From contig JAUMYC010000003.1 in assembly GCA_030528845.1 (NCBI GenBank), positions 1 through 38,672 on the forward strand: DNA of 38,672 nucleotides, given 5' to 3'. Made by a program: the position numbers and the translations under genes. Positions 8,941 through 13,379 of the stretch are shown here, one piece after another. A model generated the notes under the pieces. It was not told where the DNA came from. It ran no database searches and was given only the letters and a program-made list of their open reading frames with translations. This DNA comes from Eubacteriales bacterium. GTDB taxonomy: Bacteria; Bacillota_A; Clostridia; Christensenellales; Aristaeellaceae. Positions within the stretch are counted from its first letter, which is position 1. Each line of letters starts with the position of its first letter.

Positions 8941-9017
8941 AAAGGTGGATTTTGTGTGATAGAATATCAGAAAACCGGTCGATAAACTTGAATAGGCTCA
9001 ATTGATGCGCCGCGCCA

Positions 9018-9119
9018 AAGCCTCCCCTGTGTAAGGGGAGGTGCCCCGCAGGGGCGGAGGGGTTGTCGATCCCTCCGTCAGCTTCGCTGACAGCTCCCTT
9101 TACACAAGGGAGCCTTTCC
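9018..9119. repeat. MITE-like palindromic intergenic element (about 100 bp)
   Basis: It starts AAAGCCTCCCCTGTGTAA and ends in the near inverse complement TTACACAAGGGAGCCTTT, with internal hairpins (GCCCCGCAGGGGC; GTCAGCTTCGCTGAC). The architecture matches a widespread non-coding repeat of gut Firmicutes that carries GGAGGGGTTGT and CCCTCCGTCAGC blocks; this is recalled, not searched. Apart from it, the palindrome at 8902-8940 and the terminator at 9136-9174, the gap 8793-9219 shows nothing else. A weak GH2 promoter (TATATA near 8820 on the minus strand) is possible but not convincing. Confidence 0.7.
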
Positions 9120-9135
9120 GAAACCGGTACATATT

Positions 9136-9219: not shown

Positions 9220-9924
9220 TCAGGGGCGGGAGAGTAGCGCGTTCAGGCGCGCCATAGTCTCCTTGTCGGGCGTGGGCCGGTCCGCAAAGGGGAAGGGAAT
9301 GCCCATGGCGTCGTATTTCGTCCGGCAGATCTTCTTGAACGGGAGCAGCTCGATGCCGTCCACGCAGGCGTGCTCCGCCGCGATGGCCTTCAGGCGCAGG
9401 AGGTTTTCCTCGCCGTCGGTGAGGCCGGGGATGACGACCTGCCGGAGCGTGGTCGGGATGTGCCGTTGGTCCAGCTCCCTGAGAAACTGCATGGGCGCCT
9501 GCAGGGAGCAGCCGACATACTGCCGGTACTGTTCCTCGCAGGTGTACTTGATATCCAGCAGCACGCGGTCGGTCACGTCCAGCACGCAGAGAGCGGCCCC
9601 GCTCAGCACGCTGCCGGAGGTGTCCAGACAGGTGTGCAGGCCTTCCTGCCGGCAGAGGGCGAACAGCTCGCGCACGAATTCGCTCTGGAGGAGCGGTTCG
9701 CCGCCGGAGACGGTGACACCGCCGTTTTTGTAATAGGAGCGCAGGCGCAGGATGCGGCCGAGCACTTCCTGCGGCGCATACTCGCTGCCGCCTTCCAAGG
9801 ACCATGTGTCCGGGTTATGGCAGCAGCCGCAGCGCAGATTGCACCCCTGCAGGAAGACGACAAAGCGCACGCCGGGGCCGTCGAGCGTGCCCAGACTTTG
9901 AAAGGAATGTACGCGCCCGTTCAT
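9220..9924 (-). CDS. pflA: Pyruvate formate-lyase activating enzyme
   Basis: A radical-SAM enzyme that installs the glycyl radical on pyruvate formate-lyase, using S-adenosylmethionine and a 4Fe-4S cluster in the cytoplasm. The cluster motif CX3CX2C is at Cys28, Cys32 and Cys35 (GCNLRCGCCHNPDTW). The start GRVHSFQSLGTLDGPGVRFVVF is typical of PflA, NGGVTVSGGEPLLQ is the SAM-binding GGE motif, and VLLDIKYT and HIPTTLRQVVIPGLTD are conserved. At 234 aa it is slightly shorter than the usual 240-250. Its ATG overlaps the pflB stop codon (ATGA at 9926-9923 region), so the two are translationally coupled and share the riboswitch-controlled promoter. Nothing is missing. Confidence 0.96.
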   Translation of the reverse strand: MNGRVHSFQSLGTLDGPGVRFVVFLQGCNLRCGCCHNPDTWSLEGGSEYAPQEVLGRILRLRSYYKNGGVTVSGGEPLLQSEFVRELFALCRQEGLHTCLDTSGSVLSGAALCVLDVTDRVLLDIKYTCEEQYRQYVGCSLQAPMQFLRELDQRHIPTTLRQVVIPGLTDGEENLLRLKAIAAEHACVDGIELLPFKKICRTKYDAMGIPFPFADRPTPDKETMARLNALLSRP

Positions 9925-12155
9925 CAGACTGCCTCATGGAAGGTGCGGGAGATGACCTCGCGCTGCTGCTCGCGGGAGAGCTTGGCGAAGTTGACCGCAT
10001 AGCCGGAGACGCGGATGGTCAGGTTCGGGTAGGCGTCCGGGTTTTCGTAGGCCTTCATGAGCGTCTCGCGGTTCATCACGTTCACGTTGATGTGGTGCGC
10101 ATCCTGGGCGAAATAGCCGTCGAGGATGGCCACGAGGTTGTTCACACGCTCCTCCTGCGTGCGGCCGAGGGCTTCGGGCGTGATGGAGAAGGTGTTGGAG
10201 ATGCCGTCGCGGCAGTCGTCATAGGAGAGCTTGGCCACGGAATTGAGCGAGGCCAGCGCGCCGTTCTCCTCGCGGTTGTGCATGGGGTTCGCGCCCGGGG
10301 CGAAGGGCATGCCCGCCCTGCGGCCGTCCGGGGTGTTGCCGGTATGCTTGCCGTAGGCCACGTTGGAGGTGATGGTGAGCACGGAAAGGGTGTGCTCCGC
10401 GCCGCGATAGGTGGGCGTTTTGCGCAGCTCGGTGATGACGCGGTGCGCCATGTCCTTGGCGATCAGATCCACGCGGTCGTCGTCGTTGCCGTATTTGGGG
10501 AAATCGCCCTCGGTGACAAAGTCGGTCACGAAGCCGTTTTCATCCTTGACGGGACGGACGGAGGCGAACTTGATGGCGGATAGGGAATCGGCCACGACGG
10601 ACAGGCCGGCGATGCCGAAGGCCATGAAGCGGTGCACGTCGGTGTCGTGCAGGGCCATCTGCGTCTTCTCGTAGGCGTACTTGTCGTGCATATAGTGGAT
10701 GATGTTCATCGTGTTGACGTAGAGGTGGCTGAGCCATTCGATATAGGTTTGGAAGCGCTCCATGACCGCGTCGAAATCGAGCTTTTCCGCGTCCATGACA
10801 GGCATCTGCGGGCCGATGTGGATATTGCTCGTGGTATCGTAGCCGCCGTTGATGGCGATGAGCAGGAGCTTGGCAAGGTTGCACCTTGCGCCGAAGAACT
10901 GCATCTGCTTGCCGACTTTCATGGCGCTGACGCAGCAGGCGATGGCATAGTCGTCGCCGTAGATGGGGCGCATGAGGTCGTCGCTCTCATACTGGATGGA
11001 GTCCGTGTCGGCGGAGACCTTCGCGCAGAATTTCTTGAACGGCTCGGGCAGGTCCTTGGACCAGAGCACCGTCAGGTTCGGCTCGGGAGAGGAGCCGAGG
11101 GTGTAGAGGGTGTTGAGCATGCGGTAGGAGCATTTGGAGACCAGAGTGCGGCCATCCTCGCCCATGCCGCCCACGGCTTCGGTGATCCACATCGGATCGC
11201 CGCCGAAGAGCTCGTTGTATTCGGGCGTGCGCAGATGGCGCGCCATGCGCAGCTTGATGACGAAATCGTCCAGCAGCTCCTGCGCGCCCTCTTCGGTCAG
11301 AATGCCCATGGCCATGTCGCGCTCGATATAGATATCGAAGAAGGTGCTCACGCGGCCGAGGGACATGGCTGCGCCGTTCTGCTCCTTGATGGCGGCGAGA
11401 TAGGCGAAGTAGGTCCACTGGACGGCCTCGCGGGCGCTGCCTGCGGGCTGGGAGATGTCATAGCCGTATTTCTGGGCGATGTCCTTGAGATAGCCCAGGA
11501 AGTTGATCTGCTGGAAGAGCTCCTCGTTGAGGCGGATGGTCTCGGTGTCGAAGGCGCCGACGGCCAGCGCGGCCTTGTCCTTTTTCTTCTCCTCGATGAG
11601 CTTGTCCACGCCGTAGAGCGCCACGCGGCGATAATCGCCGATGATGCGGCCGCGGCCGTAGGCGTCCGGCAGGCCCGTGATGACATGGCTGCGCCGCGCG
11701 AGGCGCATCTCGTCGGTGTAAGCGCGGAACACGCCGTCGTTATGGGTGGTGCGATAGCGGAACTCCTGTTCCACATGCTCGGAGAGCTTATAGCCGTAGG
11801 CTTCGCAGGCCTGCTTGACCATGCGCATGCCGCCGAAGGGGTTCACGCCCCTCTTGAGCGGGCGGTTGGTCTGCAGACCGACGATGATCTCGTTGGGCTT
11901 GTCGATATAGCCGGCGGAAGCGCCGGTGACGAGGGAAGAGGTGGCGGTGTCGATGTCGAGCACGCCGCCGTACTGCCTCTCGAGCGCAAAGAGAGACTCC
12001 ACTTTTTTCATCAGGCTGCGGGTGCGCTCCGTGGGGCCGGCGAGGAAGCCCGCGTCGCCGGTATATTCTTTATAGTTGGTCTGGATGAAATCGCGGACGT
12101 TGATCTCGTCCTTCCAAGCGCCGGGCACAAAGCCGGTCCAATTGATATGTTCCAT
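9924..12155 (-). CDS. pflB: Pyruvate formate-lyase (formate acetyltransferase)
   Basis: Glycyl-radical enzyme that converts pyruvate and CoA to acetyl-CoA and formate under anaerobiosis. The 743-aa length is that of Firmicutes PFL. The adjacent catalytic cysteines are Cys407-Cys408 in [19 protein letters not shown]. The radical glycine is Gly718 in [12 protein letters not shown] near the C-terminus. [27 protein letters not shown] and [15 protein letters not shown] are also diagnostic. One variation: the usual Ala in GARANLAK is Cys425 (GARCNLAK). The ATG at 12155 has a GGGAGGT ribosome site. Expression should depend on the ZTP riboswitch in the leader, which fits the use of PFL-derived formate for formyl-tetrahydrofolate and purine synthesis. 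pflA follows with a one-base overlap. Confidence 0.98.
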
Positions 12156-12230
12156 AACAGCATACCTCCCTGTGTGTCGCGGTATTGCCCTATGTTACTT
12201 GATAACGCGCGGCGCGCGCGTTGAATCAGA

Positions 12231-12281
12231 AAAAACAAAAAGGGCAATCCAGCTCTTTTTACGGAAAAAACTGAATTGCCC
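12231..12281 (-). terminator. Intrinsic terminator of the ZTP riboswitch expression platform
   Basis: On the minus strand GGGCAATTCAG (12281-12271) pairs with CTGGATTGCCC (12252-12242), 11 bp with one G-U pair, followed by TTTTTGTTTTTTT (12241-12229). The first arm begins with the GGGCA of the aptamer's conserved CCGTCTGGGCA, so aptamer folding and terminator formation exclude each other. Ligand binding is therefore predicted to turn pflBA transcription on. Confidence 0.88.
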
Positions 12282-12351
12282 AGACGGTCGGCATAAAACT
12301 CTTTTGCACTTCCCCGCGGTGGCTCCGCGAAATCCGTCAGTCATGCAAAAG
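12277..12351 (-). ncRNA. ZTP/ZMP riboswitch (pfl motif) upstream of pflB
   Basis: The leader read on the minus strand shows the pfl-motif layout. P1 is CTTTTGCA (12351-12344) pairing exactly with TGCAAAAG (12308-12301). The conserved TGACTGACGG follows the 5' arm. The P2 hairpin CGCGG-AGCCA-CCGCG is followed by GGGGAAG. After a short linker comes the hallmark GCCGACCGTCTGGGCA, i.e. the CCGNCUGGGC loop that contacts the purine-synthesis alarmone ZTP/ZMP. It is 110-130 nt upstream of the pflB ATG, directly downstream of a promoter, and overlaps an intrinsic terminator. Known function of the class: raise one-carbon/formate supply when 10-formyl-THF is low. The identification rests on conserved bases, structure and gene context together. 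Confidence 0.93.
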
Positions 12352-12360
12352 CACATCTGC

Positions 12361-12390
12361 ATTGTAGAGCATGGCGGCGCTCTTTGTCAA
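12361..12390 (-). promoter_or_regulatory. Promoter of the riboswitch-pflBA transcript
   Basis: On the minus strand TTGACA (12390-12385), an 18-bp spacer and TACAAT (12366-12361). The predicted start is near 12354, three bases before the P1 stem of the riboswitch. A short palindrome TTGTTGACAA overlaps the -35 box and is reminiscent of, but much shorter than, a Rex operator. Confidence 0.8.
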
Positions 12391-12460
12391 CAAGGCGGCC
12401 GGGAAGATTCTGTGTCAAAGCCGGTAAAAGTTTTGCGCAGCGCGGCTTTGTGCGGGCGCA

Positions 12461-12489
12461 TTGACACGCGCCGCGGGATATTGTACTAT
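12461..12489 (+). promoter_or_regulatory. Promoter of the PIG-L deacetylase gene
   Basis: TTGACA (12461-12466), 17 bp, TACTAT (12484-12489). The start is near 12496, about 35 nt before the ATG at 12531. It is divergent to the pfl promoter, about 70 bp apart. Confidence 0.8.
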
Positions 12490-12530
12490 GTTAAGCAAAG
12501 GAAAAGAAAACTGCGGAGGTGCTTTAGGGT

Positions 12531-13379
12531 ATGAAACTGCTGGCCATCGGCGCACATCAGGACGACAACGAATTTCGCTGCGGCGGCCTTGCCAAAAAAT
12601 ACGTCCGCTGCGGGTATGAAGCGCGCTTTCTGAGCCTGACGGACGGAAGCGGCGGGCATCACATCATGACGCCGGAGGAGACCATCGCGCGCAGGGCGCA
12701 GGAATCGGCGGCGGTGGCGCAGCTGCTGGGCATCCGCTACGACGTTTGGGACCTGCGCGACGGCGCGCTCACGGCCGACCTGCCTACGCGCGAGCGGCTC
12801 ATCCGCTATATCCGCGAGTTCAGCCCGGACGTGATCGTCTCGCACCGGCTCAACGACTATCACCCGGACCATCGCGCCGCCGGGCTGCTGGTGCAGGACG
12901 CCTCCTATCTGCTCACGGTGCCGCATGTCTGCCCGGAGACGCCCGCCATGCGCAAAATGCCCGTGATCATGTATTACGAGGATGCGTTCAAATTTCCTCC
13001 GTTCGAGCCGGACGTGGTGCTGGAGATGGACGGGGAGATCGACGTGAAGCTGCAGATCGCGCATCTGAACGTGAGCCAGGTGTACGAATGGCTGCCCTAC
13101 AACAGCGGGCATACGGACGTGCCCGAGGGCGAGGCGGAGCGTTTCGAATGGCTCAAGGGCATGGAGATCACCGCCGACACCACCGACGAGCAGATCCTCG
13201 CGGCGGGTCGGGGCTATGCCGTGCGTTTTGCGCGCACGGCGGCGCGTTTCCGCAAAGAGCTCGTCGAGCGCTACGGCGAGGAGAAGGGCGCGCGCGTGCG
13301 CTATGCCGAGGCGTTCCAGATCTGCGAATACGGAAGGCGGCCGGACGCGCAGCTGCTCGGGGAGCTCTTCCCCTTCTGA
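12531..13379 (+). CDS. PIG-L/LmbE family deacetylase
   Basis: A 282-aa zinc-dependent N-acyl amino-sugar deacetylase fold. The first zinc/catalytic motif is AHQDDNE at residues 8-14 (AHPDDE in most members, with Asp as base) and the second is HPDHRAAG near residue 110 (HxxH type). LTDGSGGHH and VIVSHRLNDYHPDH are typical. Members deacetylate GlcNAc conjugates (GlcNAc-PI, bacillithiol or mycothiol precursors, antibiotics) or other acylated sugars. There is no signal peptide, so it is cytosolic. It is a single-gene transcript with GGAGG upstream of the ATG, ending in the bidirectional terminator at 13391-13446. The substrate is not determined; with the other sugar genes nearby, an N-acetylated sugar is plausible. 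Confidence 0.88.
   Translation: MKLLAIGAHQDDNEFRCGGLAKKYVRCGYEARFLSLTDGSGGHHIMTPEETIARRAQESAAVAQLLGIRYDVWDLRDGALTADLPTRERLIRYIREFSPDVIVSHRLNDYHPDHRAAGLLVQDASYLLTVPHVCPETPAMRKMPVIMYYEDAFKFPPFEPDVVLEMDGEIDVKLQIAHLNVSQVYEWLPYNSGHTDVPEGEAERFEWLKGMEITADTTDEQILAAGRGYAVRFARTAARFRKELVERYGEEKGARVRYAEAFQICEYGRRPDAQLLGELFPF

Follow-up and report, generated by a model that had tools for sequence, protein, structure and literature searches.

The pflBA operon in the stretch of DNA analysed here (38,672 nucleotides of a contig from a Eubacteriales bacterium, referred to below as the window) is preceded by a ZTP-class riboswitch that very probably acts as a transcriptional ON switch, with its ligand, direction and physiology read across from published relatives. 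Membership of the riboswitch family, the identity of the genes, the overlap between P3 and the terminator, and conservation are supported directly here. The core finding is a canonical, ordinary switch, a new example of a known riboswitch class. Only the predicted pairing beyond the terminator, described below, might come as a surprise to a specialist. The parts of the leader and operon, all on the minus strand, are as follows.

9220..9924, minus strand: pflA, PFL-activating enzyme, 234 aa (TIGR02493, 257 bits, cut-off 231.75)
9924..12155, minus strand: pflB, formate C-acetyltransferase, 743 aa (TIGR01255, 1159.8 bits, cut-off 994.2; Pfam PFL-like and Gly_radical)
12165..12170, minus strand: likely Shine-Dalgarno sequence of pflB, GGGAGG (from sequence)
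12181..12190, minus strand: GGGCAATACC, partial copy of the terminator 5′ arm (complementarity to the terminator 3′ arm ATTGCCC, 12248-12242)
12204..12222, minus strand: GC-rich hairpin AACGCGCG-CGC-CGCGCGTT, between U-tract and copy (fold, sequence)
12230..12241, minus strand: U-tract TTTTTGTTTTTT (sequence)
12242..12281, minus strand: intrinsic terminator hairpin, 17 pairs, loop of 6, 5′ arm 12281-12265 (terminator scan, fold)
12271..12354, minus strand: ZMP/ZTP riboswitch aptamer (RF01750, 65.1 bits, gathering score 39, full model)
12277..12293, minus strand: P3 hairpin TGCCGACCGTCTGGGCA, its 3′ strand common to the terminator (RF01750 alignment)
12301..12352, minus strand: P1 helix, 5′ strand 12352-12343, 3′ strand 12309-12301 (RF01750 alignment, fold)
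12315..12329, minus strand: P2 (12329-12315), enclosed by P1
12334..12338, minus strand: J1/2 GACGG, pseudoknot partner of CCGTC 12287-12283 (published architecture and complementarity)
12361..12390, minus strand: sigma-70-type promoter TTGACA-18-TACAAT (consensus match only)

Aptamer, promoter and operon in the window

The Rfam search proposed in an earlier, sequence-only reading of this DNA returned a significant match to RF01750 at 12354-12271, which spans model positions 1-86 of 86 (E 1.6e-08), exceeds the gathering score by a wide margin (65.1 bits against 39) and is the sole Rfam match at gathering score within the window. A P1/P2 subdomain and a P3 with the conserved CCGNCUGGGCA are both present, as seen from the RF01750 alignment and from covariation in P1, and the hallmark CCGTCTGGGCA lies at 12287-12277 on the minus strand. 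In the predicted J1/2-L3 pseudoknot GACGG is complementary to CCGTC, with an A-U pair where the Rfam consensus has G-C, the sole aptamer difference from RF01750 noticed in the window. The aptamer, its association with pfl genes and the overlapping terminator are otherwise the same as in the pfl motif, which takes its name from this gene, as described in the available text of the motif report (Weinberg 2010, PMC2864571).

Every part of the complete switch claimed for pflBA by the sequence-only reading (promoter, aptamer and terminator) was found, and the genes downstream are pflB and pflA equivalogs, which supply the purine or one-carbon gene expected behind a member of this class; the start of pflA and the stop of pflB overlap by one base. 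The claimed promoter is present at 12390-12361, with a −35 box TTGACA at 12390-12385, a spacer of 18 bases and a −10 box TACAAT at 12366-12361 (11 of 12 consensus positions matched). P1 begins at 12352, 8 bases past the −10 box, and an RNA start at P1 or an adjoining base is plausible on sequence grounds. The pflB leader extends past the coordinates first assigned to it (12231..12390), up to the pflB start at 12155.

All aptamer helices are intact in the window, and among the 58 RF01750 matches of 35 related genomes only 3 score above its 65.1 bits. The leader has its promoter, aptamer, terminator, U-tract and ribosome-binding site, complete and in order. Each of these observations argues against a relic that has decayed or become blind to its ligand, with termination or read-through being constitutive, a reading that we regard as extremely improbable.

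The sequence-only reading had also brought up Rex control. The Rex operator consensus is TTGTTAANNNNTTAACAA, and even with up to 3 mismatches allowed, the window contains no match to it. This result concerns one consensus, beside which other variants of Rex sites are possible, and Rex control of pfl in the window was rejected as unsupported. Among 81 regions before pflB, three, all from relatives (L004, L044 and L075), contain a site 2 mismatches off the same consensus.

Distribution and conservation among related loci

Related loci were collected in a PflB-based scan, of which the best 80 of 572 relatives were kept (top PflB identity 85%); their titles are nearly all those of metagenome-assembled gut or other Clostridia. 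The motif CCGTCTGGGC was found within 450 bases (or the contig remainder) before pflB at 69 of the best 80 of 572 loci, and an RF01750 match before pflB in L021 brings the total to 70, making a ZTP switch at pflB near-standard among the closest relatives. When motif loci were checked against Rfam, 12 of 13 had RF01750 at pflB, the exception being L037 with 106 upstream bases only. Two of the 10 loci without the motif, L027 and L072, have an upstream stretch of just 173 and 240 bases. The other 8 of the best 80 of 572 loci, with 450 upstream bases each, showed neither the hallmark nor RF01750 at gathering score, and ZTP control of pflB is therefore not universal. Genomes of 13 loci, including L021 and 7 of these 8 match-free loci, were searched more broadly, and RF01750 was present somewhere in 9 of the 13, including 3 of the 7. 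Wider genome searches around two relatives recovered RF01750 in 82 of 147 and 73 of 198 genomes. The presence of RF01750 in all 35 related genomes is by construction, because these genomes were picked from those with the motif at pflB.

The window and 69 relatives form the set of 70 leaders used below. P1 was parsed in 68 of them (L001 and L037 were left out, the anchor motif not being found), and three leaders out of register (L023, L026 and L043) were scored as unpaired. P1 positions paired in 92.3% of cases; 500 deals of partners gave 75.8% on average and 79.6% at most (kinship ignored). A promoter-like pair of boxes was observed 5′ of P1 in 57 of the 68 parsed leaders; in 42 of these 57 it lies 4-9 bases ahead of P1. 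CCGTC is the sole L3 form among the relatives and J1/2 hardly varies (GGCGG in L001), so the pseudoknot shows little covariation.

Terminator overlap and the proposed switching mechanism

The terminator was claimed by the sequence-only reading to start inside the hallmark, and its 5′ arm does begin within CCGTCTGGGCA on the minus strand. This arm (12281-12265) contains the P3 3′ strand, which makes the terminator mutually exclusive with the ligand-bound aptamer, and 17 of 17 stem positions are paired. The RNA 12354-12232 folds at −43.5 kcal/mol compared with a shuffle mean of −32.8 (z −3.5; 0 of 200 dinucleotide shuffles as good). The aptamer by itself was not stable beyond shuffles (z −0.20; 83 of 200 shuffles as good), and a simple terminator scan of 11500-13200 gave 1 site against a shuffle average of 1.5. 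With these two measures unexceptional, the case rests on the match to the family, on conservation, and on how exactly the terminator overlaps P3. A terminator overlapping the P3 3′ strand was detected in 63 of 70 leaders (window included) versus 21 of 1400 shuffles, using a detector that requires at least 10 pairs and a start in the P3 3′ strand, with mononucleotide-shuffled downstream sequences as controls. A looser detector, which recovered 64 of 70 leaders but also 460 of 1400 shuffles, was discarded.

In the mechanism proposed here, RNA polymerase would start adjoining P1 and synthesise the aptamer. With ZMP or ZTP bound, P3 and the J1/2-L3 pseudoknot would resist invasion and keep the strand 12260-12242 off the P3 3′ strand, so that polymerase would read through into pflB, while without ligand the strand 12260-12242 would take the GGGCA of P3, allowing the terminator to form and transcription to stop at about 12241-12230. 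In ligand-free, pseudoknot-free folding the terminator state beats the P3-constrained state by 3.9-5.2 kcal/mol, depending on the constraint, so that switching would need to be under kinetic control, as has been published for relatives. The available text of the studies of these relatives describes ZMP as stabilising P3 and the pseudoknot and thereby blocking the invading strand of the terminator (PMC7337938, PMC10085676, PMC10687018), an ON mechanism that the platform anatomy of the window fits and with which the earlier claim of ligand-prevented termination agrees. The window resembles the Thermosinus carboxydivorans ZMP riboswitch, as far as that account is available (PMC7337938), in being a transcriptional ON switch whose P3 strand is common to a rho-independent terminator, and it resembles the Clostridium beijerinckii pfl ZTP riboswitch, in the available parts of its description (PMC10085676, PMC10687018), in that the terminator nucleates on the P3 3′ strand and ZMP blocks strand displacement. 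In the text available, the F. ulcerans ZTP riboswitch is described as having the same mechanism as these two.

By the same analogy, more pyruvate formate-lyase would provide formate for 10-formyl-THF once purine formylation stalls. In the available text of Weinberg (2010, PMC2864571), pfl is among the five commonest predicted targets, and Pfl is said to yield formate for formyl-THF and purine synthesis. The response to purine and one-carbon starvation put forward in the sequence-only reading is in line with this published metabolic reading, and formate-THF ligase is encoded in 34 of the 35 related genomes. The window would thereby add a clean case of folate/purine stress governing fermentative formate output in gut Clostridia. 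A further ZTP riboswitch was observed directly 5′ of a formate-THF ligase gene in three related genomes (G017:C52, G031:C32 and G005:C66), an arrangement that may allow joint control of formate making and use.

Five of the 70 leaders (L049, L050, L056, L064 and L077) have the hallmark 30-40 bases before pflB and no detectable terminator. RF01750 was confirmed in L050, L056, L064 and L077, and the five are probably translational versions. Inspection by eye of L050 and L064 revealed an additional hairpin separating P2 from the J1/2 pseudoknot strand, as well as a CTTTC...GAAAG pair that could mask the Shine-Dalgarno sequence.

These relatives raise the question of whether an intact aptamer in the window could also switch mainly at the level of translation, the freed P3 5′ strand or other segments covering the pflB ribosome-binding site in the terminator fold. 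In the unconstrained whole-leader fold, as read from its bracket notation, part of the freed P3 5′ region does pair towards this site. However, the predicted accessibility of the window's Shine-Dalgarno sequence was 0.68 in the free fold and 0.73 in the P3-constrained fold, and group means were similarly close at 0.53/0.51 (free/constrained) for 17 leaders that pass the pairing test described below and 0.44/0.42 for the other 42, among them the window (another 4 of the 63 had no recognisable motif and were left out). Translational coupling was not adopted, given that predicted accessibility hardly differs between folds, and in view of the strong terminator in the window we consider mainly translational switching very unlikely and favour the transcriptional ON switch.

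Predicted pairing beyond the U-tract in pflB-linked leaders

Many pfl leaders contain a second partial copy of the terminator 5′ arm right after the U-tract, complementary to the terminator 3′ arm. The pairing energy of the 3′ arm with the downstream stretch was compared with that of 200 dinucleotide shuffles of the stretch, and of the 63 pfl leaders that have a terminator, the window among them, 19 paired at p<0.05, 10 of them at p<=0.01. All 19 belong to the 49 leaders in which 30 or more bases precede the start codon; of the 14 with a stretch under 30 bases, 0 passed. In controls with 100 shuffles each, the 5′ arm against the same stretch passed in 1 of 63 leaders and the 3′ arm against the reversed stretch in 5 of 63. 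With a common detector and 100 shuffles, again on the best 80 of 572 loci, 10 of 233 non-ZTP terminators passed versus 17 of 52 ZTP terminators (Fisher p 5e-08, leaders treated as independent). Pairing of the 19 strands with their own leaders averaged −15.4 kcal/mol, versus −11.2 with those of others, and 0 of 5000 re-deals were as good (phylogeny not kept). For the long leaders, 49 in all, none of 2000 re-deals was as good as the own pairing (phylogeny not kept).

Replication used 140 further loci (L081-L220, partly overlapping the first set), which yielded 96 distinct new leaders. The hallmark pattern was absent from 18 loci, and 28 leaders had no terminator by the detector, which left 68. 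In leaders with PflB the stretch tested ended at the start codon, and in all others it covered 45 bases. Of the new leaders with PflB downstream, 9 of 30 passed at p<0.05, compared with 3 of 38 new ZTP leaders without PflB found downstream (Fisher p 0.025), a rate not clearly above chance. Own pairing outdid all 2000 re-deals in the 27 new pfl leaders whose downstream stretch is 30 bases or longer (phylogeny not kept). An earlier look at L081-L138 had given 2 of 18 new leaders passing, 1 of 5 with PflB; this PflB leader, L117, fails once the stretch ends at the start codon. A ZTP leader with no PflB match within 2.7 kb, L163, was observed to have strong post-U-tract pairing (−17.8 kcal/mol, p 0.015).

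The PflB proteins of 8 of the 9 replicating leaders are 68.6-72.2% identical to that of the window, and these leaders mostly have another arm sequence, with the copy differing accordingly. At 80% identity, single linkage leaves the 28 passing leaders in 28 clusters; at 70% there are 14 and at 60% just 1, the compared segments containing the 5′ arm in the first set only. Because the pairing was replicated and the copy changes along with the arm, we think that, judging by these sequences, post-U-tract pairing is probably real in part of the pfl leaders, 28 of 93 passing.

In the window, GGGCAATACC and the terminator 3′ arm can form 7 consecutive pairs, 11 in total with bulges, with the GC-rich hairpin 12222-12204 in the loop. 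When the segment 12258-12150, which starts with the terminator 3′ arm, was folded, it gave this structure with −34.5 kcal/mol, and 6 of 200 shuffles did as well. With the copy masked, the P3-constrained, ON-like fold lost 11.0 kcal/mol of stability and the free fold 2.7. On its own the window copy reached p=0.10 against dinucleotide shuffles, and the pairing claim for the window therefore rests on the family.

The copy could be a chance match or the functionless trace of a local duplication, a reading to which we give an even chance. It is favoured by the p value of the window alone, by the finding that the own leader is the single best partner in only 5 of 19 strands, and by the mean ON-OFF energy gap, which is the same with and without the pairing (6.1 vs 6.3 kcal/mol). 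At positions where arm and copy differ (20 leaders, the 19 passing and the window), 33 cells still pair and 31 are broken, and selection is not evident from that count alone. Arguing against it are the pass rates of the pfl leaders in both sets, 19 of 63 and 9 of 30, set against those of non-ZTP terminators and of PflB-less ZTP leaders, as well as the re-deals, all 5000 of which (19 leaders) and all 2000 of which (27 new leaders) were beaten by own pairing, with kinship ignored.

Should the pairing be functional, the copy could hardly affect the termination decision, since it would be made only after polymerase passes the U-tract. In read-through RNA the freed terminator strand, paired with the copy, might help to hold the ON fold. 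In the C. beijerinckii switch the ligand-bound fold persists after read-through, and an alternative hairpin has been proposed to keep the ON fold, according to the available text (PMC10687018). By analogy with that hairpin, we infer that keeping the ON fold is the favoured role of the pairing. The C. beijerinckii alternative hairpin comprises construct nt 101-127 in the parts of the reports available (PMC10085676, PMC10687018), whereas the window offers the freed strand a possible partner in a separate segment past the U-tract. The available text of the T. carboxydivorans account (PMC7337938) describes no segment past the U-tract, whereas the window has a candidate one. Within the open-access literature, as far as its text was available, we found no description of pairing beyond the U-tract in ZTP switches.

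We therefore put forward, as a tentative proposal that we hold to be somewhat doubtful, that in some pflB-linked ZTP riboswitches of gut Clostridia, the window included, a third regulatory strand after the U-tract may capture the downstream strand of the terminator, with the U-tract in the loop. The terminator would then be blocked and the ON fold would outlast the ligand, giving the mRNA leader a latch or memory that would affect mRNA stability or translation. If the pairing is real, ZTP expression platforms could reach past the terminator, and reporter fusions that replace the native leader would miss that part; the persistence of the ligand-bound fold after read-through would also become testable by a two-sided base-pair swap.

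Neighbouring elements

A divergent promoter-like site, TTGACA-17-TACTAT, is present at 12461-12489 on the plus strand, ahead of a gene for a PIG-L family deacetylase (12531-13379, plus strand) whose top NCBIfam match, BshB1, is under its cut-off. About 70 bases lie between the two divergent −35 boxes. At the other end of the operon, the gap separating pflA from the gene that follows contains a long palindromic element, made up of nested hairpins, at 9010-9125 of the window. This element has no Rfam match at gathering score and may be a dispersed repeat; the fold of 9000-9130 is −71 kcal/mol (z −5.5).
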